From Arthrobacter sp. zg-Y769 (lineage in GTDB: Bacteria > Actinomycetota > Actinomycetes > Actinomycetales > Micrococcaceae), in the NCBI RefSeq assembly GCF_020907405.1, contig NZ_JAJJOE010000012.1, forward strand, positions 62,001-126,000: a stretch of 64,000 nt of DNA. Reading direction: 5' to 3'. Each line of letters opens with the position of its first letter. Position 1 is the stretch's first letter. This document shows positions 23,500-38,301 of the stretch, one piece after another. The position numbers were made by a program, and so were the translations under genes. The notes beneath the pieces were generated by a model that had not been told where the DNA came from, ran no database searches, and saw only the letters and a list, made by a program, of their open reading frames with translations.

Positions 23500-23799
23500 G
23501 TGATCTTCAAAGCTGTTGGCGATGTGCGCCCCTACCCCGACCATGGATATGTAACACCTAAGGACTGGGCAGCGGTACCTCCCCGGCAGGTTCGCCTGGA
23601 TGATCTGGTGACCACGAAGGCCACGCTGGACCTCGGCGCGCTGCTGGCCGAGGATTCCACCTTTTTCGGAGACCTGTTCCCGCACGTCGTCCAATGGAAG
23701 GGCACCATGTACCTTGAAGACGGACTGCACCGGGCCGTAAGGACGGCACTGCACCAGCGGACCATACTGCACGCACGCGTGCTGGTCCTCGATGACTAA
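23500..23799 (+). CDS. VapB-type antitoxin-like actinobacterial protein
   Basis: A 99-residue protein beginning VIFKAVGDVRPYPDHGY. It contains PPRQVRLDDLVTTKATLDL and the strongly conserved STFFGDLFPHVVQW and LEDGLHRAVRTAL. Proteins of this kind are widespread in Micrococcaceae and often labelled VapB-family antitoxin, but no PIN-domain VapC gene is near. The role is therefore uncertain. It starts with a leaderless GTG and overlaps the LytR_C gene by eight bases, so the two are co-translated. Confidence 0.75.
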   Translation: MIFKAVGDVRPYPDHGYVTPKDWAAVPPRQVRLDDLVTTKATLDLGALLAEDSTFFGDLFPHVVQWKGTMYLEDGLHRAVRTALHQRTILHARVLVLDD

Positions 23800-24469
23800 G
23801 GAGCCCCCCGAGGGGCGGCACCGCGGCAATCCCGCGAAGAACGATCCGAGGGAATGGCACGGGCACCGGATTATCACCGGCGGTGATCTCGGCGCGGTGT
23901 TCGCACCCACCGACGAGCCGGAGCTGGTCCGGCGCGCGAAACGGCGCCGGCGGCTGCATAATTCGGTGGTCGGGTTTCTGGCTCTGTTCCTGGTCCTGGC
24001 GGCGATCCTGGCGCAGGGACTGATTTCGGGGTGGGTGCGGTTGCCAAGCGCAGCACCCAGTACCTCTGCGGGTCCGGTGGACAAATGTCCGGCCGGGCCT
24101 TTTCCGTATCTGGACCCCGGTACCGTGACGGTGAATGTGTACAACGCGACGGCGTCGCCGGGCCTGGGTGCCACCGTCGGCAACGCCCTGAACGAGCGCG
24201 GCTTCCGGGTGGACCGGGTGGGCAACAGCAGCGTGAACCGCTCCGGCATGACGGCGCTGGTGCTTTCCGGGGCCTCCGGCTTCGCCGCTGCCTACACTTT
24301 GCAGCAGCACATTCCCGGCACGGACTACGTCCTGGATGAGCGGACGGACGCCTCCGTTGACGTGGTGATCGGCTCCGGATTCCAGGAACTGCTTCCAGCG
24401 GAGCAGGCAGTGGCCGCCGGCCCGGGTGCACTGAGCTGCCCGGGAACTTCGACGCCGGACGGACAATAA
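23792..24469 (+). CDS. Membrane-anchored LytR C-terminal domain protein
   Basis: A 225-residue protein with a basic cytoplasmic N-terminus, one membrane helix (about 53-77, following RRAKRRRRLHN), and an extracellular LytR_C domain (about 110-200: VTVNVYNATASPGLGATVGNAL ...). LytR_C occurs at the end of LytR-CpsA-Psr wall-polymer ligases and alone in actinobacteria such as VirR of Mycobacterium tuberculosis. It lacks the LCP catalytic domain, so a partner or envelope-stability role is likely. It overlaps the upstream gene by eight bases. Confidence 0.86.
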   Translation: MTKEPPEGRHRGNPAKNDPREWHGHRIITGGDLGAVFAPTDEPELVRRAKRRRRLHNSVVGFLALFLVLAAILAQGLISGWVRLPSAAPSTSAGPVDKCPAGPFPYLDPGTVTVNVYNATASPGLGATVGNALNERGFRVDRVGNSSVNRSGMTALVLSGASGFAAAYTLQQHIPGTDYVLDERTDASVDVVIGSGFQELLPAEQAVAAGPGALSCPGTSTPDGQ

Positions 24470-24474
24470 CCGGG

Positions 24475-25203
24475 GTGGACCTGCCGCACATCGAAACGCG
24501 CGGGCCCCGGCAGACGCCCGGATCTGTCCGGCTGGCAGCGCGGCAGCTGGATTTAGTGGACCTCAGCGCAGCGGACAGCCTGGGAACGGCGGTCCTGGCA
24601 CGGGCGCAGGGGCTCCACCGCGAGGAGGACCGTCGTCGTTTCCTGGCCGGCAGGCTGGCGGCCCGGTCCCTGGTGGCCGCACACCTGGAGGTGCCGGAGG
24701 TGGACGTTACCGCAGTTGCGCACTGTCCGGACTGCGCCCGCGGCAATGACGGAAGCCATGGTGAGCCGCGCTATTTCCTTGCCGGCCAGCTCATCCCGCT
24801 GCGGGTCAGTTTCAGCCGTTGCGGGAACTGGCTCGCGGCAGCGCTCGCCGAGACGCGTGTGGGCGTGGACCTGGAGGATGCCGCCGCGCAGGCTTTCTCC
24901 GACTCGGCTGTTGAGGACGTGATGGCCACGGGCCCGGAAAAGGCGGCCGTTGCCTCCGTCGCGGTTCCTGATCGCCCCCGGCTGAGGGCGCAGCTGTGGG
25001 TTCGCAAGGAAGCACTGCTGAAGGCTTCCGGGCGGGGGCTGCGGGTTGATCCCCGCAGCGTGGAAACGCATTACAGTAGCGAGCTGCCGGAAACGGATGC
25101 CGGGGTCACCGGGCTGTGCGCGTACGACGTCGGGCCGGAGCAGTTGGGATTGCCAGCCGCCTTTGTGCTCTCCTATGCCGTGGATGCACGCGAGGTTCAG
25201 TAA
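24475..25203 (+). CDS. 4'-phosphopantetheinyl transferase (Sfp-like)
   Basis: A 242-residue transferase that moves phosphopantetheine from CoA to carrier-protein serines. Both signature motifs are present: VGVDLE near residue 124 for Mg2+ and CoA, and WVRKEALLKASGRGL near 175 (WxxKEAxxKxxGxG). N-terminal RRRFLAGRLAARSLVA matches the Sfp family. It begins with GTG five bases after the LytR_C stop, but its functional partner is probably the carrier domain of the synthetase 1.6 kb downstream, the only NRPS-type protein visible here. Confidence 0.9.
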   Translation: MDLPHIETRGPRQTPGSVRLAARQLDLVDLSAADSLGTAVLARAQGLHREEDRRRFLAGRLAARSLVAAHLEVPEVDVTAVAHCPDCARGNDGSHGEPRYFLAGQLIPLRVSFSRCGNWLAAALAETRVGVDLEDAAAQAFSDSAVEDVMATGPEKAAVASVAVPDRPRLRAQLWVRKEALLKASGRGLRVDPRSVETHYSSELPETDAGVTGLCAYDVGPEQLGLPAAFVLSYAVDAREVQ

Positions 25204-25210
25204 CGCCGCT

Positions 25211-26395
25211 TCAGTCGCCCCGCTCGGCGGAGGTAGGATCCGAGTGCCGCCGCAGAACGGAGTTGCGGGCGGCCGCGGCACCGTTGGAGACGAAGTTCTC
25301 CAGCGGCCCCTGCTTCCCGGCCCGCTGCCACAGGACGGCGAAGACCACAAAGGCGGAGATTTGAAGCCAAAGGGAAACCTGCGGCAGGTCTGCCAGCATT
25401 CCGGTGCCGAGGAAAAGCAGATGCGCGCAGTACAGGGTCAGCGTCATCCGCCCCGGAGCGGACAGGACGAACAACGCCTTACCCGCGTAGCGGGCTACGA
25501 GCAGCATGGCTCCGAGCACAGCGGCGGCGACCCCGATGGTGTGGAGCAGATCGAACGGCGTGGTGCTGTGCGGAGCCATGATCGACAGCCACCACCAGGA
25601 CGAGGTGGGAAGGTAGCCCTCTGTGCCCCAGACGAGGATGTCCTGCAGATCACGGGAACCCAGCTCCGGTTCGGAGACAAGCAACCGATCGAATCCGGGG
25701 CCGCTGAGCAGCAGCTGTGAGCCGAACCAGGCTGCCGCTGCCAGTGCTGCGCCTGCCCCCAGCAGTCCGAACTGGACACCGGGCCGGTCCAGTTTCATCC
25801 TTCCAACGGCCAGTCCTGCGCAGATGTAAGCCAACCAGGGAATGGCGGGATAGGTTCCCGTAAGCAGGAGCTGGCTGATGAAAACGCCGGGTTCCGTCAG
25901 CAACGTAGTGAACGTGGGATCGAAACCCGGTGCGGGCAGGGAATCCCGCAGCGCCTGCATCAACACCGGCCCCAGCAGCGCGAATCCTGCCGCGGCCAGG
26001 AGCAGGGTCCGGGTCGTTACCCCCAGCAGCGGGACGGCCAGCAGGAACATGGCGCCGTAATAGGCCAGGATGATGAAGACGTCCATTTCCACATAGGCAA
26101 TGGCCAGGCCAAGGCCCGTAACCAGCCCGGCCCGTGCAGCCACGCTCCAGCGGGCCGCGGTGAGGAAATTTCCCCGCTCCGCCCGCGCCGTCCGGGTGGT
26201 GAAGGCCAGCGACACCCCTGCCAGCAGGGCAAAGAGTGCTGCAGCCTTCCCGGCGAACAGCAGCCACGTCAGCGTCGGCTCACTATCTTCGTTTGCCGCC
26301 GGCAGGAGATGGATCGCCATCATTCCGAAAAGCGCCAGGCCGCGCGCCGCATCCACTCCGGACAGCCGGGGCCGCGTTGTTGTTGCAGAGGACAT
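25211..26395 (-). CDS. Polytopic HGSNAT/DUF418-like acyltransferase membrane protein, copy 1
   Basis: A 394-residue protein with about 10 membrane helices. The start LSGVDAARGLALFGMMAIH carries the D-x-x-R-G...M-x-x-H signature of heparan-glucosaminide acetyltransferase-like and DUF418 proteins, which move acyl groups across the membrane. The C-terminal GRMTLTLYCAHLLFLG is the DUF418-type end. It is clearly homologous to the protein at 31770-33119, over the whole length. It is transcribed away from the Pls-like synthetase across a shared 379-base region. ATG 26395 is the first start that matches the paralogue. Confidence 0.82.
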   Translation of the reverse strand: MSSATTTRPRLSGVDAARGLALFGMMAIHLLPAANEDSEPTLTWLLFAGKAAALFALLAGVSLAFTTRTARAERGNFLTAARWSVAARAGLVTGLGLAIAYVEMDVFIILAYYGAMFLLAVPLLGVTTRTLLLAAAGFALLGPVLMQALRDSLPAPGFDPTFTTLLTEPGVFISQLLLTGTYPAIPWLAYICAGLAVGRMKLDRPGVQFGLLGAGAALAAAAWFGSQLLLSGPGFDRLLVSEPELGSRDLQDILVWGTEGYLPTSSWWWLSIMAPHSTTPFDLLHTIGVAAAVLGAMLLVARYAGKALFVLSAPGRMTLTLYCAHLLFLGTGMLADLPQVSLWLQISAFVVFAVLWQRAGKQGPLENFVSNGAAAARNSVLRRHSDPTSAERGD

Positions 26396-26774
26396 GCTGT
26401 AGGTCCCGTCGGCAGAATATCTGTTATTCCCCTGTCGAGCGCGGGGTGCACCACACAACCAACGGCTTCTGTTCGTAACCTGTTGGAAACCTAGGTACAG
26501 GCTGTGAACCACGTGGGCGTAGTTCTACCTGTGCCCTGGATGCCTGCGGTGACGCGGTTCGCTACGCGTAGCGAACTCAGATCGGGTAGCCGCCCGAGTA
26601 TCTGCAGGGGAGGGGGAAGTGGTTAAGGCCGTATCGAACGGCCTCCTGCGCGCCTGAGGTACTCGTGTGAATCTGCTGTCATTTTCCTATTGTTCCCTGC
26701 ATTGATCAGGCCAACGCCTGTCTCAGGTTGTGGTCCCTCGACCACGTCATGCATCAGCAGGGGAGCTGCAGTAT
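26396..26774. promoter_or_regulatory. Divergent regulatory region of the Pls-like cluster
   Basis: A 379-base gene-free region between two divergent genes. It holds the perfect 20-bp palindrome GTTCGCTACGCGTAGCGAAC (26557-26576), the inverted repeat AGGCCGT-N5-ACGGCCT (26626-26644), and GTGGTC-N4-GACCAC (26730-26745). Towards copy 1 of the membrane protein, TATTCT lies about 20 bases before its start. I cannot point to a convincing -35/-10 pair for the synthetase gene. Confidence 0.6.
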
Positions 26775-29700
26775 ATGAACACGCCCGAAAACCCGCAGGA
26801 TACGGCCGCTGGACCAATGACGCTCCGGCATCCGGCCGCTAGCGGCAGCACAACCGGACCGCCCCTCCCCGGAGAATTGGCGGTACTGAACGGCGGCCCC
26901 GCACCGGAGCAGCGGACCCTGGTGGATATCCTCGCCGAAACGGTCTCAGCCTATCCAGGGGCCCCCGCCATCGATGACGGAACCGTGTCCCTGAGCTATG
27001 CCGAACTCGAGCTCCAGGTACAAGCGCTCGCAAGGCGGCTGTGGGCGGGCGGCATTGGTGCCGGGGACCGGGTGGGAATCTATGTTCCCTCCGGATCGGT
27101 GGACCTGTATGTAGCAATTCTCGGCGTGCTGTACTCCGGAGCCGCTTATGTCCCGGTGGACACGGACGAACCGGCCGGCCGGGCCGAGACGGTGTGGGCC
27201 GAAGGCGGAGTCTGCGCGGTTATTGAAGCCGGACTGGAGATGAACCTGCTTCAAGGGGTCCCGAGCGGCGGACACAGCCCGCAGCCGCACCCCGAAGACG
27301 ATGCATGGATCATCTTCACCTCCGGCTCCACCGGAAAGCCCAAGGGCGTGGCCGTAACCCACCGATCCGCCGCTGCCCTGGTGGATGCCGAATCCTCGCT
27401 CTACTGCGTCAGTGCCCCGCTTTCCCCGGGGGACCGGGTCCTGGCCGGGCTCTCCGTGAGCTTTGATGCCTCCTGCGAAGAGATGTGGCTGGCGTGGGCC
27501 CATGGTGCCTGTCTGGTCCCGGCACCCCGTTCCGTGGTACGGTCCGGCGCAGATCTGGGTCCCTGGCTGGTGGAACGGAGAATCACTGCCGTTTCCACTG
27601 TGCCCACCCTCGCCGCGCACTGGTCCACCGAAACCCTGGACCGTGTCCGGCTGCTGATTTTCGGCGGTGAAGCCTGTCCGGAGGACCTGGTCCGGCGGCT
27701 GGCGGCACCCGGGCGGGAGCTCTGGAATACGTATGGTCCAACCGAAACCACGGTTATTGCCTGCGGTGCCATCCTGGACGGAAGGTCTCCGGTTCGGATC
27801 GGCCTGCCGCTGAACGGGTGGAAGCTCGCCGTCCTCAACGAAGAAGGGAACCCCGTGCGCTGGGGGGAAGTAGGCGAGCTGGTCATTGGCGGCGTCGGGG
27901 TTTCGCGTTACCTGGATCCGACAAAGGACGCCGAGAAATTCACTCCACTGCCGGCTCTCGGATGGGAACGGGCCTACTACAGCGGAGACCACGTCCGCGC
28001 CGACCAGGAAGGCCTCGTTTTTGTGGGCCGGGTGGATGAACAGATCAAACTGGGCGGCCGCCGGGTTGAGCTCGGCGAGATTGATGACGCCTTGAGCCGG
28101 CTGCCGGGAGTGGCTGCCGCATCGGCCGCAGTCCATTCCACCCTGTCGGGGAACCAGGTGCTGGCGGGATATCTCGTCCCGACTGCCGGGACAACCCTGG
28201 ACCTTGGCGCCGCGCGGGCACAGCTGGCACAGAACCTGCCGGCATCCATTGTCCCTTCGCTGGGGATAGTTGATGAACTGCCCATGAAGGCCTCGGGAAA
28301 GGTGGACCGCAAGGCGCTGCCCTGGCCGTTACCGGCAACGGAAACGCCAACTGACGTCCGGGTGGAACTCAATGCCGACCTGCGTTGGCTTGGTCAGCGG
28401 TGGACGGACCTGCTGGGCCCGCTGCCGCTGACGGAGGAGAGCGATTTCTTTGCCCTGGGTGGAGCCAGCCTGGCCGCCGCCCAACTGGTATCGGCACTGC
28501 GGGAACGCTACCCGAAGGTTTCGGTGGCCGATATCTATGAGCATCCGACGCTGGGCACGATGTCCGACCATCTCGCTTCCCTGCGCGATTCAACCCTGGA
28601 TGTCCGTGAAACCCCCGAATCGCCCTGGTGGCTGGGACTGGTCCAGGCACCGCTGATTGCCGCCCTCTACGGAATCACTGGCCTGCGGTACGTTACGGGC
28701 ATCGCCATCGTCTGCATGGTGATGTTCCATGTGGTGGGCAGCCCCTGGACGCCGGATCCACCGGTGGCCCCCACCCTTGCCGCCTGGTTTGCTTTGTACA
28801 GCCTGCCGGCACGGATGGTGGCGGCGGTGGCCTCGTGCAGGCTGCTGCTGCTGGGAATCGGCCCGGGTATCTACCGGCGCGGCGGCAGCACCCACCTGAG
28901 GCTGTGGGCAGCTGAACGGATCGTGACGTACTGCAAGCTCGAGCCCATCATGGGATCCCCCCTGGGCACGTGGTACGCCCGCAAGCTGGGCTGCCGGATC
29001 GGGGAAGGCGTCCACCTTGATGCCATGCCGCCCGTCACCGGTTTCGCCTCGATAGGGGATCGTTCCTCGATCGAATACGAAGCAGACCTGGCCGGTCACT
29101 GGATAGAAGGCGGCCAACTCCACATCGGCACCGTGCAGGTAGGCGAAGACGCACGGATCGGCGCCCGGTCCACCCTGATGGGAGGGGCGAAAGTCGGCCG
29201 CGGGGCGGAAACGGAACCGGGAACCCTGGTCTCCGGCGAGATCCCCGCAAACGAGCTCTGGGCAGGATCCCAGATGCGGAAGGTCGGTATTGCGGGGACC
29301 GGATGGCCGACGGAAGCGGCACCGGCGACGGAATCCCGCGGAGTACGGCTGCTCTACCCGGCATCCCTCGCCGGCATTGCGGTGCTGAACCTCCTTTCCA
29401 TAGCGCCGGGATCCGCACTGATGCTGTGGTTGCTGAACGGGGTTACTTCCTTCACCGACGCACTGTGGATCCTGGCGATCTGGGCACCGGTGTTTGTCGT
29501 GATGTCCATGGCGACGTTCCTCGCGCTCACTGCAGCCGTAGTCCGCGCGGCTGCCCGCCGCATGCCGGCGGGTATGCACCCTGCGTCCGGCATGGCAGGC
29601 TGGGCGTCCTGGCTGAGCAACCTGATGCTCAGCCGGTCCCTGGTCACGATGTATCCGATCTACGCCAGCGTGTTGACGCCGGTATGGATGCGGCTCCTGG

Positions 29701-30785
29701 GTGCAAAGGTCGGCCGCCACGTGGAAATCTCCACCATGGAAACCGTTCCGCACCTGACGCGGCTGCAGGACCGGACCTTCCTTGCGGACCACTCCATGGT
29801 GTCGGCACGGCGCGTGCGCCAGGGGTGGTTGCACCTCGGCCCGTCGAGTGTCGCGGAACAGTCCTTCGTCGGGAACTCGGCGATAGTGGGTCCGGACATC
29901 CACGTACGGGAGAATTCCCTGATCGCAGTGCTTTCCTCGGCCCCCAGGGACATGCCGGCGGGTACGTCCTGGTTCGGACGCCCGGCGGTAGAGCTGCCGC
30001 GGCCGGTACAGGTGGGGGACACCGCCCGGACCTACGATCCTCCCCGGCGCCTACTCGTTGCCCGCAGCGCCGTCGAAGCCTGCCGGATACTGCCGGCGGT
30101 AATCACCGCATGGCTGGCCCTGCTGACGGTCTGGGCACTGGCCGCCCTGTACGACGCGTTCGGCTTCCTCACTGCCCTCCTGTGGTCCGGTCCCGTACTG
30201 CTGGTGAGCGGAATCGCGGCGGCGCTCATTGCCGTTGTGGCGAAATGGCTGCTGGTGGGCCGCTTTGAGGCGTCCGAGCATCCGCTGTGGAGTTCGTTTG
30301 TCTGGCGGAACGAGCTGGCGGACGTGTTTTCGGAATCCCTGGCCGTTCCCGGACTGGTGCGTATGAGTCTGGGGACCCCCATGCTCAATGCCTGGCTGCG
30401 CTGGATGGGTGCACGGATCGGCCGCGGCGTCTGGTGCGAGACCTGGTGGTTGCCGGAGTTCGACCTCATCCGGGTGGGCGACGGCGCGAGCATCAACCGC
30501 GGAACGGTCCTGCAGACCCACCTTTTCCATGACCGCATCATGCGGATGGACGAAGTGATGCTGGGCGACGGTTCAACGCTGGGACCCAACAGCATCGTGC
30601 TGCCCGGCAGTGCCATTGAAGCGGGCGGCACCGTCGGAGGCTGCTCATTGTTGATGCGCGGGGAGAGCGTCCCCGCCAATAGCGCCTGGTGCGGGAATCC
30701 ACTGGCCCATTGGGGCCAGAGCCGTCCAACACAGCGGCGTGCACGGCACCGCAAGTCGATTGAGTATGTAGGAGCAGGGTTATGA
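26775..30785 (+). CDS. Pls/PosA-family poly(amino acid) synthetase (A-T-membrane architecture)
   Basis: A 1336-residue membrane NRPS. Adenylation domain (about 40-525) with IIFTSGSTGKPKGVAVTHRS near 178, FDASCEEMWLAW, YGPTETT, and GRVDEQIKLGGRRVELGE near 417; carrier domain with FFALGGASLAAAQL, pantetheine site Ser565. From about 625 onward come membrane helices alternating with three soluble parts containing hexapeptide-repeat (left-handed beta-helix) sequence such as VGEDARIGARSTLMGGAKV. This matches epsilon-poly-L-lysine synthetase of Streptomyces albulus (about 1319 residues, A-T, six helices, three tandem C domains). Manual code DAESIGTVIK, with an acidic residue at 239, suggests a cationic substrate. 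No condensation or thioesterase domain is present. The substrate is inferred. Confidence 0.9.
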   Translation: MNTPENPQDTAAGPMTLRHPAASGSTTGPPLPGELAVLNGGPAPEQRTLVDILAETVSAYPGAPAIDDGTVSLSYAELELQVQALARRLWAGGIGAGDRVGIYVPSGSVDLYVAILGVLYSGAAYVPVDTDEPAGRAETVWAEGGVCAVIEAGLEMNLLQGVPSGGHSPQPHPEDDAWIIFTSGSTGKPKGVAVTHRSAAALVDAESSLYCVSAPLSPGDRVLAGLSVSFDASCEEMWLAWAHGACLVPAPRSVVRSGADLGPWLVERRITAVSTVPTLAAHWSTETLDRVRLLIFGGEACPEDLVRRLAAPGRELWNTYGPTETTVIACGAILDGRSPVRIGLPLNGWKLAVLNEEGNPVRWGEVGELVIGGVGVSRYLDPTKDAEKFTPLPALGWERAYYSGDHVRADQEGLVFVGRVDEQIKLGGRRVELGEIDDALSRLPGVAAASAAVHSTLSGNQVLAGYLVPTAGTTLDLGAARAQLAQNLPASIVPSLGIVDELPMKASGKVDRKALPWPLPATETPTDVRVELNADLRWLGQRWTDLLGPLPLTEESDFFALGGASLAAAQLVSALRERYPKVSVADIYEHPTLGTMSDHLASLRDSTLDVRETPESPWWLGLVQAPLIAALYGITGLRYVTGIAIVCMVMFHVVGSPWTPDPPVAPTLAAWFALYSLPARMVAAVASCRLLLLGIGPGIYRRGGSTHLRLWAAERIVTYCKLEPIMGSPLGTWYARKLGCRIGEGVHLDAMPPVTGFASIGDRSSIEYEADLAGHWIEGGQLHIGTVQVGEDARIGARSTLMGGAKVGRGAETEPGTLVSGEIPANELWAGSQMRKVGIAGTGWPTEAAPATESRGVRLLYPASLAGIAVLNLLSIAPGSALMLWLLNGVTSFTDALWILAIWAPVFVVMSMATFLALTAAVVRAAARRMPAGMHPASGMAGWASWLSNLMLSRSLVTMYPIYASVLTPVWMRLLGAKVGRHVEISTMETVPHLTRLQDRTFLADHSMVSARRVRQGWLHLGPSSVAEQSFVGNSAIVGPDIHVRENSLIAVLSSAPRDMPAGTSWFGRPAVELPRPVQVGDTARTYDPPRRLLVARSAVEACRILPAVITAWLALLTVWALAALYDAFGFLTALLWSGPVLLVSGIAAALIAVVAKWLLVGRFEASEHPLWSSFVWRNELADVFSESLAVPGLVRMSLGTPMLNAWLRWMGARIGRGVWCETWWLPEFDLIRVGDGASINRGTVLQTHLFHDRIMRMDEVMLGDGSTLGPNSIVLPGSAIEAGGTVGGCSLLMRGESVPANSAWCGNPLAHWGQSRPTQRRARHRKSIEYVGAGL

Positions 30786-31753
30786 GTACATCTGCGGGAA
30801 ATACAAGGACAACCGACGTCTCCCGGCGGTTCGGCACAGTGCTTACCGCCATGGTCACGCCCATGGATGAGCGCGGCCAACTGGACCAGTCCGGCGCCGA
30901 AGAACTGGCCCGGTGGCTGCTTCGGACCGGCTGGAACGACTCAGTGGTGGTCAACGGCACCACCGGTGAGTCCTTCGCTACCTCGGATTGGGAAAAAGCG
31001 TCCATGATCCATTCGGTCAAGCGGGTCACCGCGGGGACCCAGCGGCGGGTCATCGCGGGGGTGGGCTCCACGGATACCCGGCACAGCATCGAGCTGGCCC
31101 GTGCTGCAGCTGAGCAGAAGGCAGACGGCCTGCTGGTGGTTGCCCCCTACTATTCACGCCCCACGCAGAAGGGCCTGCTGCGCCACTTCGAAGCCATTGC
31201 CGACAGCACCGACCTGCCGGTGATGCTGTACGACATCCCGGCCCGCACCGGCGTCGCAATCGCACCCGAAACCCTGGTGGCGGCCAGCCGTCATCCAAAT
31301 ATCGTTGCGGTAAAAGACGCCAAGGGCGATCTCGTATCTTCTTCCTGGGTTATGAAGCACAGCGAGCTGGTCTACTACTCGGGGGACGACGCCTTGAACC
31401 TACCGCTGCTGTCCATAGGCGCCGTCGGCGTCGTTTCCGTGGTCGGCCATGTTGCCGCAAACCAGCTGCGTGCCTTGACCCTCGCGTACCGGCAGGGCCG
31501 GGTCGACGATGCACTGCGGATTCACCGGGACCTGCTGCCGGTCTACACCGGGATGTTCAGGTGCCCAGGTGCAGCCTCGGCGAAGGCCGCGCTTCGGACG
31601 CTGGGGCTGCCCTCCGGCCCCGTCCGGGGACCGCTTACCGACCTGAGCGAAGAAGAGACCGCACTGCTCGTGGCTGACCTCATTGCAGCGGGATTGCAGA
31701 CTACGCTTGCGCACCGGCCTCAAGTCCCTGAAGCTCTGGCACGGGCGTACTGA
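30782..31753 (+). CDS. Dihydrodipicolinate synthase (DapA) paralogue coupled to the synthetase
   Basis: A 323-residue TIM-barrel aldolase. Key DapA residues are present: GTTGE at 59-63, Tyr150 and Arg155 in LYDIPARTG, and Schiff-base Lys178 in VAVKDAKGD. DapA condenses pyruvate with aspartate semialdehyde, the first committed step to diaminopimelate and lysine. The ATG overlaps the synthetase stop (ATGA), so the two are translated together. A DapA tied to a Pls-type gene fits dedicated supply of lysine or diaminopimelate. Family relatives such as NAL/KDG aldolases are possible, but the residues favour DapA. Confidence 0.9.
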   Translation: MSTSAGNTRTTDVSRRFGTVLTAMVTPMDERGQLDQSGAEELARWLLRTGWNDSVVVNGTTGESFATSDWEKASMIHSVKRVTAGTQRRVIAGVGSTDTRHSIELARAAAEQKADGLLVVAPYYSRPTQKGLLRHFEAIADSTDLPVMLYDIPARTGVAIAPETLVAASRHPNIVAVKDAKGDLVSSSWVMKHSELVYYSGDDALNLPLLSIGAVGVVSVVGHVAANQLRALTLAYRQGRVDDALRIHRDLLPVYTGMFRCPGAASAKAALRTLGLPSGPVRGPLTDLSEEETALLVADLIAAGLQTTLAHRPQVPEALARAY

Positions 31754-31769
31754 GCAAAAAGGGGAAATC

Positions 31770-33119
31770 ATGAGCGGGTTGGGTCAGGCAGACCTGGGTA
31801 AACGGCGGGTCACGGGCATCGACGCTGCCCGGGGAGCGGCGCTGATTGCCATGATGGCAATTCACATCCTGCCCGCCTGGAACGAGGACTTCGAACCCAC
31901 GCTCACGTGGCTATTGTTCGCCGGCAAGGGGGCAGCGCTATTTGCAGTGCTTGCCGGGATATCCCTGGCCTTTATGTCAGGGGGGATGTACCCGCCGCGG
32001 GGGCGGACGATGACTGCGGTCCGTTATGGACTTGCCGTGCGTGCCGGCCTCATCACCATCATCGGGTTGTTTCTCGGCTACCTTGCGATCAATGCCCAGG
32101 TGATCCTCGTCTATTACGGCGTGATGTTCCTGCTCGCGCTCCCACTGCTTCGGCTTCGTGTGCGGACCCTGTTGATTCTTGCGGCCGGTATCGCTGCCGC
32201 CGCGCCCGTCCTGATGCAGGCCACCAGGGACTCGCTGCCGGATATGAACGGGGTGGAACCCAACTTCTCCACCCTCCTTGAAACACCCGGCGCCGTCATT
32301 GGCCAGGTACTTCTCTCCGGTACGTATCCGGCACTGCCCTGGATGGCGTACGTCTGCGTGGGATTGGCTGTCGGCCGGCTGGATCTGGCCGAGCGAAAGG
32401 TGCAGATCCGGCTGCTGGTTACCGGCGTTGGCCTGGTCATTGCAACTGCAGTCCTTTCCGCCCTCCTCCTTGGCCCCTTCGGCGGGAGGCAACAGCTGGT
32501 GGACGCTACGTCGGTGTGGTCTTCCACCCCTGAGGTGACGGTTGAGGAAATCATCGTCTGGGGTCCGGACCCTGTCCTGCCTTCGGATTCATGGTGGTGG
32601 CTGGCGTCCTTGAGCCCCTACTCCAGTACGCCGCTGGTACTGGTCAACACCATCGGGACCTCGGTGGCGTTCCTGGCGATACTTCTGCTGATAGGCGGTG
32701 CCGGTGCTGGGCTCCTGCGGCCCTTTGCCCTGCTGGGAAAGATGACGCTGACGCTGTACTCGCTGCACCTGATCCTCCTGGCCGCCGGACTGCTGGCGGA
32801 CCGTCCGCCGCTGGAAATGATTCTCCAATTGATCGTCATTGGGATCTTCGCTTCTGTCTGGCAGCGGTACAAGACGCAGGGGCCACTGGAAAAGGGAGTT
32901 GCGGAAGCCTCCAAATGGGTGCGCAGCAAATACCTCAAGAGCACCGGCGACATGCGTAACACCCCGCAGTCCCCAGCGACGGCTGACCCCCCTCCCCCTC
33001 CCGCGCCGCCGGATAGAGGGCATAGCGAGCGGCCCTCGGATACGCCGTCGCCCCGGCGCCAGGCAGCGCAGGCCGAAGGCCGGCACCGTGGCCGGCACCG
33101 TTCCCGTCAGCGCAGTTGA
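31770..33119 (+). CDS. Polytopic HGSNAT/DUF418-like acyltransferase membrane protein, copy 2
   Basis: A 449-residue protein homologous to the one at 25211-26395: VTGIDAARGAALIAMMAIHILP and FEPTLTWLLFAGKGAALFA align almost residue by residue. It has about 10 membrane helices, then a C-terminal extension of about 55 residues rich in Pro, Arg and His that the first copy lacks. AAGGGGAAATC precedes the ATG. It belongs to the synthetase-dapA operon and overlaps the next gene by one base. It may acylate the polymer, carry it across the membrane, or modify the wall; the sequence does not decide. Confidence 0.85.
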   Translation: MSGLGQADLGKRRVTGIDAARGAALIAMMAIHILPAWNEDFEPTLTWLLFAGKGAALFAVLAGISLAFMSGGMYPPRGRTMTAVRYGLAVRAGLITIIGLFLGYLAINAQVILVYYGVMFLLALPLLRLRVRTLLILAAGIAAAAPVLMQATRDSLPDMNGVEPNFSTLLETPGAVIGQVLLSGTYPALPWMAYVCVGLAVGRLDLAERKVQIRLLVTGVGLVIATAVLSALLLGPFGGRQQLVDATSVWSSTPEVTVEEIIVWGPDPVLPSDSWWWLASLSPYSSTPLVLVNTIGTSVAFLAILLLIGGAGAGLLRPFALLGKMTLTLYSLHLILLAAGLLADRPPLEMILQLIVIGIFASVWQRYKTQGPLEKGVAEASKWVRSKYLKSTGDMRNTPQSPATADPPPPPAPPDRGHSERPSDTPSPRRQAAQAEGRHRGRHRSRQRS

Positions 33120-34210
33120 TGTTGTTGACTCTTGCACGCCGCCTCGGTCTTGCGGCAACTACGGCGCTGCTCACCGCCCTTTTGCTGCCTCCGGTGTCCG
33201 CCGCCGGCGCGCAGCAGGAGCATGATCCATGTGCACGGCTCAACGCTGGGGAAGTCCGCTACTCCGTGCGCGAGGCTAAGCGCGTGACGTTCGCAACGGC
33301 CGAAAAATACGGGGCTGCGGAAACCCGACTCACCGGCTGCGTTTTTGAGGACGGCGCCTATGTGCAGGAATGGCAGTCCTGGGGATTCAGCGGGCGCAAC
33401 GGGTTCGCACCCCCGGGCAGCATGTGGGAAAACACCTTGTATTCACCCACGGGATCCTTCAGCTTCACCGAGGCACTCGGACGCAGCAACCCGGGCACCC
33501 AGCTGGAATACCACGAGCTGAATCCCTCCTCCAGATGGGGCGGTGAGCATGGGGCGACCTACAACCAGTACTTCGAAGGGGAAGGCGCAGGAGCGGACGA
33601 GAACCTTTGGCGGTACATGGAGCAGGGACTCTATGAGCAGGCGGCAGTTATTAACTGGAACCGGCCGCCGGATATGCCAACCAGGCAGGGCGCTTCCTTC
33701 GCCATCTTTTTCCATGCCGGCTACGCACCCACCTGGGGTTGCATTTCCACCGATCTGGCCACGGTTACCCGGCTGCTGCGCAAGGCCGTGCCGGGCGACC
33801 GCATTGTTATGGGGACTGTGGAGGACGTCTTCACGGCGTCTGCCGCTGCTTCCGAGGCAACCGCCGCTGTGGCTCGGGCAGAGGAGAAAGCGGCGGCAGT
33901 CCAAAAGAGGCTGGACACGCTGACTACCGGGCTGTTGACCTTCGGGGTGCTGTCCGTCCTGGGGCTGCTGATCCGGCTGGCCTTTCGACGAGCAGGGAGC
34001 CCGGGAAAGCCGCGGGCCGCCCGGCGCCGCGCTGACTCGTCTCCTAAGCCGCCGGCTCCGGAACCGCAGGCTGCCGCGAGACCAAGAGCCCACACGGGCT
34101 GGTCCCCGGCGGAAATTACCTCGGCAGATCCTTCCCCTCCGTTCGAGAAGCAGCCGGACAGCGAACGGATAGGGACACCGCGGGAGGACGTTTCTTCACG
34201 CAACCGCTGA
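33119..34210 (+). CDS. Secreted, membrane-anchored L,D-transpeptidase-like protein
   Basis: A 363-residue protein with a signal peptide (residues 1-29, LTALLLPPVSAAGA) and an extracellular domain with the YkuD-type active-site pattern His199...Cys208 in FFHAGYAPTWGCISTD. A coiled coil follows (about 240-268), then a membrane helix (271-289) and a basic, proline-rich tail. L,D-transpeptidases cross-link peptidoglycan stems or attach proteins to them. ATG 33119 overlaps the preceding stop (TGATG), so it is translated with the membrane acyltransferase. The domain is divergent, and the acceptor could be wall or polymer. Confidence 0.78.
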   Translation: MLLTLARRLGLAATTALLTALLLPPVSAAGAQQEHDPCARLNAGEVRYSVREAKRVTFATAEKYGAAETRLTGCVFEDGAYVQEWQSWGFSGRNGFAPPGSMWENTLYSPTGSFSFTEALGRSNPGTQLEYHELNPSSRWGGEHGATYNQYFEGEGAGADENLWRYMEQGLYEQAAVINWNRPPDMPTRQGASFAIFFHAGYAPTWGCISTDLATVTRLLRKAVPGDRIVMGTVEDVFTASAAASEATAAVARAEEKAAAVQKRLDTLTTGLLTFGVLSVLGLLIRLAFRRAGSPGKPRAARRRADSSPKPPAPEPQAAARPRAHTGWSPAEITSADPSPPFEKQPDSERIGTPREDVSSRNR

Positions 34211-34228
34211 TGCGTATGCGCTGTCGCA

Positions 34229-34234
34229 TAGAAT
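34229..34234 (+). promoter_or_regulatory. Leaderless -10 element for the 65-residue protein gene
   Basis: TAGAAT, a five-of-six match to the consensus, exactly six bases before GTG 34241. Confidence 0.6.
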
Positions 34235-34240
34235 TTGAGC

Positions 34241-34438
34241 GTGAACCAAACACCTGCCGGCGACGGGACGGACCGGATGGCTCCCGACGCGACGGACGAG
34301 GGCAGGATGCTGTACGAGGAACGGCTGACCTTCCTGCCCGGGTTGTGGATGCCCCCGGCACCCGCCTGGGAGGATCTGTCTGAGGCGGACCGGAACCGGT
34401 GGCGGAAGTACGCCGGGAATCCCGAAAGCGGCGTCTAA
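34241..34438 (+). CDS. Small hypothetical protein
   Basis: A 65-residue soluble protein with a central YEERLTFLPGLWMPPAPAWEDLSEADRNRW segment in which a Trp/Pro-rich stretch precedes an acidic helix (DLSEADRNRWRKYAG). I do not recognise the family. GTG 34241 follows a strong -10 by six bases, so it is probably leaderless and can drive the M1 peptidase gene 20 bases downstream. It lies between the transpeptidase-like gene and the peptidase gene. Confidence 0.6.
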   Translation: MNQTPAGDGTDRMAPDATDEGRMLYEERLTFLPGLWMPPAPAWEDLSEADRNRWRKYAGNPESGV

Positions 34439-34458
34439 GCCGGTTTCGGAAGCTACCC

Positions 34459-35850
34459 GTGGCGGAATCGCGCAGCCGTGTCAGGATGTCCGCCATGTGG
34501 CAGACCGGACATCAGCACCAACATCGGAACCAACCGCCCGACCCTTATACGCCCACCTCCGGTTCCCCGGACCTTAGCGTCAACGAGTATGACCTGACCC
34601 TGGATTACGACGTCGGGCCTAACCGGCTAAAGGGCCAGGCGAGCCTTACGGGCACTGTCCGAACCGGCGTCGAACAGCTCATCCTGGACCTGGACCGGCA
34701 GCTGCGGGTGGACGAAGTCCTGCTTTGGTCCGACGGAAGCCCTGCGGCCGTCCGCTCTTTCCGGCACCGCCGCGGCAAGCTGGAGGTGACACCAAACCGG
34801 GTGTTGGACGCCGGTGCCGCCTTTCGGCTGAGCATCCGGTACAGGGGCCGGCCGCGCGCCGGCAACGGTCTCTGGGGCGACATCGGCTGGGAAGAACTGA
34901 CCGACGGGGTCCTCGTTGCCGGACAGCCCACCGGGGCGCCGTCGTGGTTTCCGTGTAATGACGTCCCGGCCGACAAGGCCAGTTACCGGCTCAGCGTGAC
35001 GGTGGAATCCGGCTACCGGGTGACCTGCAACGGCCGGCTGGTCTCCCGGGAAGACCGCGGAGGCCGGGAGACCTGGGTATACGAACAGCCCGAGCCCATG
35101 TCCACGTACCTGGCGACGGTCCAGATCGGCCGCTACGAGTACCTCGACCTGCCCGGTGACACGGTACCGCAGTCCCTTGTTTCACCCCCGTCCCTGGTCA
35201 GCCGTGCCCAGTCTGCATTGACCAGGCAGGACGCCATGATGAACCTGTTTACCGACCGGTTCGGGCCCTATCCTTTCGGCCGGTACACCGTGGTGGTGGC
35301 CGATGACGGGCTGGAGATCCCTTTGGAGGCGCAGTCGCTGTCCGTTTTCGGACGCAACCACCTCGGGTCGGGAGCGGCATCGTTAGTAGCGCATGAACTC
35401 GCGCATCAGTGGTTCGGCAACTCGGTCACCGCGGCTAACTGGCGCGATATCTGGCTGCACGAGGGCTTCGCGACCTACGCGGAGTGGATTTGGGCCGAAG
35501 CGGCCGACGGTGCGGGCAGCGACGCGAGGGCGGAGGAGGACCTGGCGTGGCTTCAGCAGCAGCGGCAGGACCTGCAGCTGGCCGATCCCGGCCCGGAGTC
35601 CATGTTCGACGAGCGGGTCTACCGGCGCGGGGCGTTGGCGCTGCACGTCCTGCGGCGCAGCGCCGGAGACGGAGCCTTTTTCGGCCTGTTGCAGGAGTGG
35701 ACGCAGAAGTACCGGCACAGTTGTGCCGGTACCCGCGACTTCCTGGACCTGGCCGACAAGGTCTATGCTGCCGCCGGCATCTCGGTCTCCGGGCTGTTGG
35801 AACCGTGGCTGTTTGAGTCCGCGGTTCCAGCCGTTCGTTTCAGTGCCTAG
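34459..35850 (+). CDS. M1-family zinc metallopeptidase
   Basis: A 463-residue gluzincin with the M1 active site HELAH (312-316) followed after 18 residues by the third zinc ligand, Glu335, in WLHEGFATYAEW. The N-terminal beta-domain contains QPTGAPSWFPCNDVPADKASY, typical of bacterial M1 aminopeptidases without the C-terminal helical domain. GTG 34459 has GGAAG upstream; ATG 34486 and 34495 are alternatives. No signal peptide is visible. The epsilon-poly-lysine-degrading enzyme Pld of Streptomyces albulus is, as I recall, a zinc aminopeptidase of this type, so a polymer-clearing role is plausible here. Confidence 0.87.
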   Translation: MAESRSRVRMSAMWQTGHQHQHRNQPPDPYTPTSGSPDLSVNEYDLTLDYDVGPNRLKGQASLTGTVRTGVEQLILDLDRQLRVDEVLLWSDGSPAAVRSFRHRRGKLEVTPNRVLDAGAAFRLSIRYRGRPRAGNGLWGDIGWEELTDGVLVAGQPTGAPSWFPCNDVPADKASYRLSVTVESGYRVTCNGRLVSREDRGGRETWVYEQPEPMSTYLATVQIGRYEYLDLPGDTVPQSLVSPPSLVSRAQSALTRQDAMMNLFTDRFGPYPFGRYTVVVADDGLEIPLEAQSLSVFGRNHLGSGAASLVAHELAHQWFGNSVTAANWRDIWLHEGFATYAEWIWAEAADGAGSDARAEEDLAWLQQQRQDLQLADPGPESMFDERVYRRGALALHVLRRSAGDGAFFGLLQEWTQKYRHSCAGTRDFLDLADKVYAAAGISVSGLLEPWLFESAVPAVRFSA

Positions 35851-36554
35851 CAGCCATCGGGGCCGCAGGCGGGTCCGTCTGCTGACACCGGTGTCAGGTT
35901 CACCAGCGGATGGGACTCCTGCCAGGCCTGTTCCAGGGCCGAGGAGAACAGGTCGGCAGGCTGCGCGCCGGAAATGCCGTACTTGTCATCCAGCACAAAG
36001 AACGGAACTCCGCTGATCCCGAGCGACCGCGCCTGCGCAATGTCGGCGCGAACGGCGTCCGCGTATTCGTCAGTGGCCAGCATGTCCTTCACCCGGTCGG
36101 CATCCAGGCCGATCCGGGTACCGATCTCCACCAGATCATCCGCAGCACCGATATCCCTGCCCTTTTCGAAATGGGCCGAAAGCAGCGCTTCCTTGGCGGC
36201 GTCGGCACCTTGCAGCCCACCTTCGGCCTTGGCCAGGTGGATCAGGCGGTGGGCGGAGAAGCTGTTGGCCACCACCAGGGAATCGTAGTCGTAGGACAGT
36301 CCCTCGCCGGCGGCCTGGACGGTTACCTGGTCCAGCATGCCGGCGAGCTGTTCGGGGTCGATCCCCTTGCGCTCGCTCAGGTACTCAACCTCCGTGCCGT
36401 CAAAGTGTTCGGGCAGGGACGGGTCCAGCTGGAAGCTGTGCCAGTGGACCTCTACCTCGTCCCGGTGCGGAAAACGGGCCAGGGCGGTCTCGAAGCGGCG
36501 CTTTCCGATGTAGCACCACGGGCAGGCAATGTCGGACCAGATATCAATCTTCAT
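35847..36554 (-). CDS. DsbA-family (FrnE-like) oxidoreductase
   Basis: A 235-residue thioredoxin-fold protein with CPWC in DIWSDIACPWCYIGKRRFE near the N-terminus and the cis-Pro loop GISGVPFFVLDDKYGISGAQ at about 180. There is no signal peptide, so it belongs to the cytoplasmic FrnE/2-hydroxychromene-2-carboxylate-isomerase branch, linked to polyketide biosynthesis and to oxidative stress in Deinococcus. The C-terminus ends with extra cysteines (ACGPDGC). It overlaps the end of the convergent M1 gene by four bases. The start at 36554 matches the family; no ribosome site is obvious. Confidence 0.88.
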   Translation of the reverse strand: MKIDIWSDIACPWCYIGKRRFETALARFPHRDEVEVHWHSFQLDPSLPEHFDGTEVEYLSERKGIDPEQLAGMLDQVTVQAAGEGLSYDYDSLVVANSFSAHRLIHLAKAEGGLQGADAAKEALLSAHFEKGRDIGAADDLVEIGTRIGLDADRVKDMLATDEYADAVRADIAQARSLGISGVPFFVLDDKYGISGAQPADLFSSALEQAWQESHPLVNLTPVSADGPACGPDGC

Positions 36555-36669
36555 ACAGGGTGCAACGCAGAAAGGACCGGAAGCCATTCCCGCGGGGGAT
36601 GCGGTAATGACTCCCGGTCCTTGCCCCGGCGGATACTGAAGCGGTATCCGCCCCGCCGCCCCCAAGCGG

Positions 36670-38301
<1,632 letters not shown>

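Follow-up and report, generated by a model that had tools for sequence, protein, structure and literature searches.

Arthrobacter sp. zg-Y769 carries a predicted lysine-type pls locus from a distinct lineage that pairs with transmembrane acyltransferases

Results

Organization of the locus

The 64,000-nucleotide stretch of DNA from Arthrobacter sp. zg-Y769 analyzed here (the window) contains, at positions 24475-35850, a locus built around pls (26775..30785, forward strand), which encodes an A-T-membrane poly(amino acid) synthetase. An earlier note on this DNA had described a 1336-residue synthetase coupled to a dapA paralogue and accompanied by a 4'-phosphopantetheinyl transferase (PPTase), two paralogous polytopic acyltransferase-like proteins, an L,D-transpeptidase-like protein and an M1 peptidase, and every one of these genes was identified. 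The pls open reading frame (26730-30785) spans 1351 residues from a GTG, and the ATG 15 codons in, at 26775, reproduces the length of 1336 residues. Pls matches TIGR02353 (Pls/PosA terminal domain) with 578 bits against a cut-off of 423, together with AMP-binding and PP-binding, and hydropathy places six hydrophobic segments in its C-terminal part; neither the four matching Pfam families nor the 25 highest-ranked of 103 NCBIfam families include a condensation or thioesterase domain of its own.

Four nucleotides of pls overlap the next gene on the forward strand, dapA2 (30782..31753), a paralogue of 4-hydroxy-tetrahydrodipicolinate synthase that exceeds the TIGR00674 cut-off (250.6 bits; cut-off 206.15), which bears out the described coupling. 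After a 16-nt gap follows atB (31770..33119, forward), the operon copy of a transmembrane acyltransferase (TmAT) superfamily protein (HGSNAT_cat, 49.7 bits), which overlaps by 1 nt a gene for a divergent YkuD (L,D-transpeptidase-like) protein, ldt (33119..34210, forward). The reading frame of the M1-family metallopeptidase (34399..35850, forward; alternative start at 34486), with both Peptidase_M1 and M1_N over cut-off, starts approximately 190 nt past ldt and 3.6 kb downstream of pls. On the other side of pls and divergent from it lies the second TmAT-superfamily acyltransferase gene, atA (25211..26395, reverse strand; ATG at 26395 picked by alignment), whose product carries the TmAT motif residues and matches HGSNAT_cat with 53 bits; the roughly 380 nt between the two genes (26396..26774, no strand assigned) form a putative divergent control region. 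The two acyltransferases, both over the Pfam cut-off, are 46% identical to each other. The PPTase (24475..25203, forward) belongs to the ACPS family (PF01648, 43 bits). A single Pls-type synthetase of the genome (3.4 Mb in 23 contigs) exceeds the family cut-off; dapA is present twice, the second copy on another contig.

The synthetase and its predicted monomer

The top match of Pls in the PDB is the A domain of epsilon-poly-L-lysine synthase (7wew; E 6.9e-184), to which the Pls A domain is 62% identical. The substrate pocket reads DAESIGTVIK in the window and DAESIGTVVK in the Streptomyces albulus enzyme, with nine of ten residues equal, and passages of PMC10522769 associate alanine as the second pocket residue with lysine, methionine with ornithine, and phenylalanine with diaminopropionate or diaminobutyrate. 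Because the pocket has alanine in second position and differs from that of S. albulus at one residue, the monomer is predicted to be lysine. The earlier proposal of a poly-lysine-like or poly-diamino-acid polymer is thereby narrowed: the Pls-type synthetase and a predicted lysine polymer stand, and a neutral or shorter diamino-acid polymer is rejected on the lysine-type pocket. The closest named Pls, among the best 80 of 591 matches, is that of Arthrobacter pullicola (69%).

Two lineages of Pls with different partner genes

We compared the neighborhoods of 39 Pls genes of the same family, picked manually among the matches (highest scores first, followed by second copies and others; the 8 most distant stretches were picked later), and of 80 named loci, the best 80 of 591, of which 5 identical ones were left out ahead of a 116-row FastTree phylogeny. 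The trees are fast searches and their rows are related by descent; M1 genes within 2.1 kb after pls were scored as downstream, and nine neighbor labels, plus the dapA of locus L081, were assigned by hand. A branch with an SH-like support of 100 splits the 116 rows into 29, including the window (hereafter acyltransferase-type), and 87 (M1-type). In 27 of the 29, pls is followed in the same orientation, immediately or after dapA, by a polytopic acyltransferase gene, which 0 of the 87 have downstream; an M1 peptidase gene lies downstream in 80 of the 87. Of the two exceptions in the smaller clade, L089 ends 287 nt past pls and L090, from a metagenome bin, runs into formate-dehydrogenase-like genes. 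On 27/29 versus 0/87, we rejected the acyltransferase as a chance neighbor; the rows being related by descent, the Fisher values computed are not probabilities. A further tree, with 55 rows and with synthetases of other pocket codes as the root, again unites the 20 sampled acyltransferase-type rows in one clade (SH-aLRT 100); on the single clade in both trees, a repeated origin of the lysine-code acyltransferase-type Pls was rejected. In these alignments, Pls splits into two lineages with different partner genes, a division absent from the earlier note and for which our literature searches found no report.

The same comparison bears on the co-conservation that the earlier note had supposed for the genes around the synthetase. 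Within the 29-row clade, the acyltransferase is near-constant, and dapA (14/29), YkuD-like (12/29) and M1 (7/29) genes occur at the locus less often; given these unequal frequencies, the association is real but graded. By record title, the clade comprises Arthrobacter, Zafaria, Citricoccus, Paeniglutamicibacter, Nesterenkonia, Kocuria and three Corynebacterium records. Its pocket codes in the 116-row set are DAESIGTVIK (22), DAESIGTVVK (4), DAESIGTIIK (2) and one partial code, and all 86 readable M1-type rows have DAESIGTVVK. Relatives of the PPTase are also found beside M1-type pls genes in Micrococcaceae.

Acyltransferase-type and M1-type loci share one slot after pls. Judged by candidate starts, a 4-nt overlap with pls was found for M1 in the three M1-type loci printed (L057, L060 and L067), for the acyltransferase in Kocuria-type loci (L051-L054 and L088), and for dapA2 in the window, L044-L046 and L081. 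The membrane part of Pls appears in these comparisons to have shifted together with the partner gene: at an A-domain identity of 64-66%, it averages 43.4% identity between the clades (685 pairs) versus 50.8% (86 pairs) and 48.8% (223 pairs) within them, the pairs not being independent. In a class-wide sample of 40 stretches, hand-picked from 39 of 100 genomes and including all 20 non-family matches of the same order, M1 was downstream in 36, an acyltransferase in one (L194, with another pocket code) and neither in three.

Two further arrangements were observed. Paeniglutamicibacter antarcticus (L081) has an M1-type and an acyltransferase-type pls side by side and divergent, with a YkuD gene between them, and the lineages can therefore coexist in one locus. 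Neither an M1 nor an acyltransferase gene was found downstream in the stretches L092, L093, L094, L108, L111, L112 and L141, mostly from Kitasatospora and Streptomyces; in L092 just ~0.7 kb remains past pls.

TmAT signature residues of the acyltransferases

At E 0.01, HGSNAT_cat was matched by all 17 aligned acyltransferases, Acyl_transf_3 by 10 and DUF418 by 6, and the sequences share with the TmAT superfamily (HGSNAT, YeiB/DUF418 and AT3) both HGSNAT_cat and the signature residues, whereas the copies in the window stand beside a polymer synthetase. The TmAT signature, as described in passages of PMC12423673, consists of DxxR in helix 1, FxxxxG in helix 2, an arginine in helix 3 and a tyrosine in helix 9, DxxRx10H being the AT3 form. 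In our alignment (A2), D18, R21, H32, F58, G63, R91 and Y330 are invariant. A pattern search identified DxxRx10H in 31 of 32 copies from stretches of the Pls clade, 15 of 15 dapA-linked, 7 of 7 response-regulator-linked and 12 of 13 other stand-alone copies, and in 4 of 5 copies beside other-code synthetases. The histidine is thus of the AT3 type, yet the best Pfam match in the member shown is HGSNAT_cat. Since the signature residues are intact, the acyltransferases look catalytically competent. Simple hydropathy identified 6 segments in atA and 8 in atB (the TmAT fold has ten helices). In the tree, atA clusters with three stand-alone acyltransferases, one of them response-regulator-linked. 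No usable match was obtained for the acyltransferase profile against solved structures, and an NCBIfam scan returned nothing for atA, atB or the YkuD-like protein.

Acyltransferases beyond the lysine-type loci

Relatives of these acyltransferases also occur beside synthetases with other pocket codes, in 5 of 14 such stretches (L194, L204, L205, L207 and L210). L204 (3778-11429) contains dapA, a synthetase with the code DGESVSVVNK, an acyltransferase and, divergent from these, a KamA-family radical SAM protein that is over the TIGR00238 cut-off and under that of the lysine 2,3-aminomutase model. An aminomutase is mentioned beside the poly-beta-lysine synthetase in passages of PMC10522769, and L204 would fit as a candidate poly-beta-lysine locus. 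L205 and L207 (code DFECLSVVTK) share one layout, in which two M28-type peptidases (scanned in L207) and an acyltransferase are accompanied by a two-component system of response regulator and kinase and by a diaminobutyrate transaminase encoded divergently (scanned in L205). Both are candidate poly-diaminobutyrate loci with several protection genes; the L205 transaminase exceeds the cut-off of EctB, the ectoine model, and may therefore serve ectoine instead.

Stand-alone copies were found as well. Among 20 stretches in which the acyltransferase is not beside a full Pls (one representative scanned per cluster; L232, a dapA-linked control, included), a response regulator is adjacent or next but one in 7, with a kinase too in 6, and some stand-alone copies adjoin M28 peptidases. 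In L220, L221 and L222, probably from Kocuria, the stand-alone acyltransferase lies in a conserved stretch beside a type I restriction R-type protein (scanned in L222). L226 (7129-9139) contains an intact acyltransferase frame beside a C-terminal pls remnant, and a nearby frame was judged by eye to be transposase-like; as read from these frames, the synthetase is broken and the acyltransferase kept. Across genomes, a Pls-family match at 1e-100 was present in 24 of 26 with an acyltransferase match of at least 400 bits, versus 56 of 123 others.

A third TmAT acyltransferase (G000:C19; L079, 8156-10381) lies divergent from the housekeeping dapA in all eight sampled genomes of the genus of the window; 15 loci, mostly chosen because the tables showed the pair, confirm this arrangement, and in genomes G009 and G097 the two genes are not close together. 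Together with the adjacency of dapA2 and atB in the window, this arrangement would agree with an explanation in which the acyltransferase is part of a lysine/diaminopimelate supply module, recruited along with dapA and having no role in polymer tailoring or immunity. Against it, 13 of the 27 acyltransferase-bearing members of the clade have no dapA at the locus, L205, L207 and L210 have the acyltransferase and no dapA in the stretch, and the Pls-linked acyltransferases, except for one copy in L056, fall outside the housekeeping group; we consider this explanation quite improbable.

The M1 peptidase

The M1 peptidase of the window is 45-54% identical to the M1 proteins encoded next to M1-type pls genes, and a HELAH...E zinc-site pattern was read by eye. 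The family is thus the one found beside other pls genes, in agreement with the polymer-degrading partner that the earlier note had proposed. According to passages of PMC9223678, PldII shows translational coupling with pls and has a pivotal part in self-protection, and such coupling in Streptomyces also appears in passages of PMC8117764. An M1 peptidase is consequently not new to such loci, and its presence as a departure from the Streptomyces locus is ruled out. In the window, three genes stand between M1 and pls and the gene coupled to pls is dapA2, an arrangement different from that of pls-pldII. Among 21 genomes with an acyltransferase-type pls, 4 have no M1 relative at E 1e-20.

The L,D-transpeptidase-like protein

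Hydropathy of the YkuD-like protein indicates an N-terminal hydrophobic segment and a C-terminal membrane segment, and we infer that it is extracytoplasmic. Its own match to Pfam YkuD is under the cut-off (13.4 bits; cut-off 23.4). Searched against 394 genomes of the class, its family profile detected proteins in 101, and the four scanned all pass the YkuD cut-off; the window protein is thus a divergent YkuD protein, and the L,D-transpeptidase-like label of the earlier note holds through these homologues. The putative catalytic H200 and C209 are invariant in the alignment (A1), with the HxG...[ST]xGC pattern in 14 of 14 rows, and several relatives carry a lipobox-like cysteine as read by eye. 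The motif of YkuD L,D-transpeptidases is SHGC. The family of the window protein shares with these enzymes the histidine and the GC motif but differs in its short His-to-Cys spacing and in [ST][WV]GC. An hhalign comparison of the YkuD-like set, which included some wrong-strand translations, with YkuD proteins gave a probability of 0.6% with the GC motif aligned, and the profile had no usable match among solved structures.

The earlier note had raised wall attachment of the polymer; attachment by this protein would give the polymer a structural rather than an antimicrobial role. The YkuD-type protein with conserved histidine and cysteine that 12 of the 29 clade members encode within or next to the locus, and the hydrophobic segments near both ends of the window protein, would fit such a role, but the gene was not found at the other 17 loci, the match of the window protein itself is under cut-off, and any acceptor would be hypothetical. 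Moreover, the relatives in the 101 genomes score under 100 bits in all but two cases, and the same 394 genomes contain, outside that of the window, no full-length Pls more than 53% identical to the one in the window. We regard this wall-attachment reading as improbable.

Flanking genes

To the left, outside the cluster, lies a gene for a LytR_C/Cei-like envelope protein (23792..24469, forward; Pfam LytR_C, 62 bits; NCBIfam Cei under cut-off), which adjoins the locus in G100/L040 too. To the right, a DsbA-like thioredoxin-fold protein is encoded convergently (35847..36776, reverse; PF01323, 143 bits), and among the Pls stretches of the same family that were compared only L040 shares it. The outer flanks are ordinary, with a BCCT transporter and a 2OG-Fe oxygenase beyond the Cei-like protein on one side, and malate synthase and isocitrate lyase with the DsbA-like protein on the other.

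Discussion

Pls in Micrococcaceae and the pairing of pls with a peptidase (PldII) are already known; what our literature searches did not show is a pls locus of lysine type that belongs to a distinct lineage and has a transmembrane acyltransferase as its partner. The S. albulus Pls/PldII system has the A-T-membrane architecture and a coupled downstream gene in common with the window, whereas in the window dapA2 and then a transmembrane acyltransferase follow pls, and the membrane part of the synthetase is of a different lineage. The coryneform loci of Jiang et al. 2021 (PMC8117764) include Pls from Corynebacterium, Arthrobacter, Micrococcus and others with lysine-type pockets, but the passages of that paper on coryneform Pls do not mention acyltransferase, dapA or YkuD partners; they note a peptidase operon and report that the C. 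variabile enzyme is silent in culture and makes epsilon-poly-lysine in S. coelicolor. The PosA, PDAP, PLDAB, PDDAB and poly-beta-lysine synthetases (passages of PMC10522769) are of the same family and general mechanism but differ in pocket codes and precursor genes. In titles and abstracts of open-licence PubMed Central, we found no report of pls paired with an acyltransferase, with dapA or with acetylation.

In the mechanism that we propose, dapA2 would raise the supply of lysine, the PPTase would probably arm the T domain, and Pls would activate lysine, its membrane part building and releasing an epsilon-linked poly-L-lysine chain. The acyltransferase would carry acyl groups from cytosolic acyl-CoA over the membrane and cap the chain's free amines. 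The reduced charge would shield the producer, or the acylated chain would itself be the end product; the M1 peptidase would cut the remaining polymer. As the weakest step, the polymer may be linked to the wall by the YkuD-like protein. The acyltransferase is read as an immunity or tailoring enzyme because it occurs in producer loci, has sensor-linked stand-alone copies and occupies a slot held elsewhere by a degrading peptidase; that it acylates free amines of the polymer, as self-protection or tailoring, is a proposition to which we give about even chances.

Several observations weigh against this reading. Amine acylation and self-protection by the acyltransferase are inferred from the genes, and the acyl donor, acceptor and product named above are putative. 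L090 has an acyltransferase-type Pls and no acyltransferase, 9 of the 14 other-code loci have none in the fetched stretch, and by eye the Pls and acyltransferase trees fail to mirror each other neatly. An M1 gene of at least 300 bits is present in 14 of the 21 genomes with an acyltransferase-type pls, with a split match in 3 more; since M1 occurs in the window and in most such genomes, the acyltransferase is no simple replacement for it. Furthermore, six of the eight genus genomes with an acyltransferase beside the housekeeping dapA have no Pls match, so a link to lysine metabolism rather than to the polymer is possible.

Sugars are the main substrates of well-studied TmAT proteins (passages of PMC12423673 and PMC9558356), which also counts against polymer acylation and brings in its main rival, that the acyltransferases modify the producer's own envelope (teichoic acid, peptidoglycan or lipid sugars) and so reduce binding of the cationic polymer, which itself stays plain poly-lysine. 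The extracytoplasmic sugars acylated by most characterized relatives fit this alternative, as do stand-alone copies beside two-component systems, which resemble induced resistance modules, and one acyltransferase family accompanying several kinds of synthetase. On the other hand, envelope modification would not need overlap with the synthetase gene, though immunity genes often overlap, and HGSNAT, the Pfam match of all 17 members, acts on an amine (abstract of PMC11357348). We judge envelope modification to be rather unlikely, if a serious contender.

Taken further, acylation of the polymer would make the two lineages representatives of two actinobacterial ways of dealing with cationic isopeptide polymers, cutting by M1 or M28 peptidases and transmembrane N-acylation. 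Acyltransferase-type loci would then make naturally acylated, partly wall-bound poly-lysine, and the same acyltransferase family would serve lysine, beta-lysine and diaminobutyrate polymers and would have spread as stand-alone, sensor-controlled resistance modules. In this full extent the proposal is doubtful.

Poly-lysine is an antimicrobial polymer of natural origin, and epsilon-poly-lysine is made industrially as a food preservative. The second lineage of Pls, with a partner enzyme of its own, offers a direct, testable answer to how producers outside Streptomyces would protect themselves, and it suggests chemically modified polymers, with capping rather than only cutting. For a little-studied branch of transmembrane acyltransferases, it would provide a concrete candidate class of substrate other than sugar.

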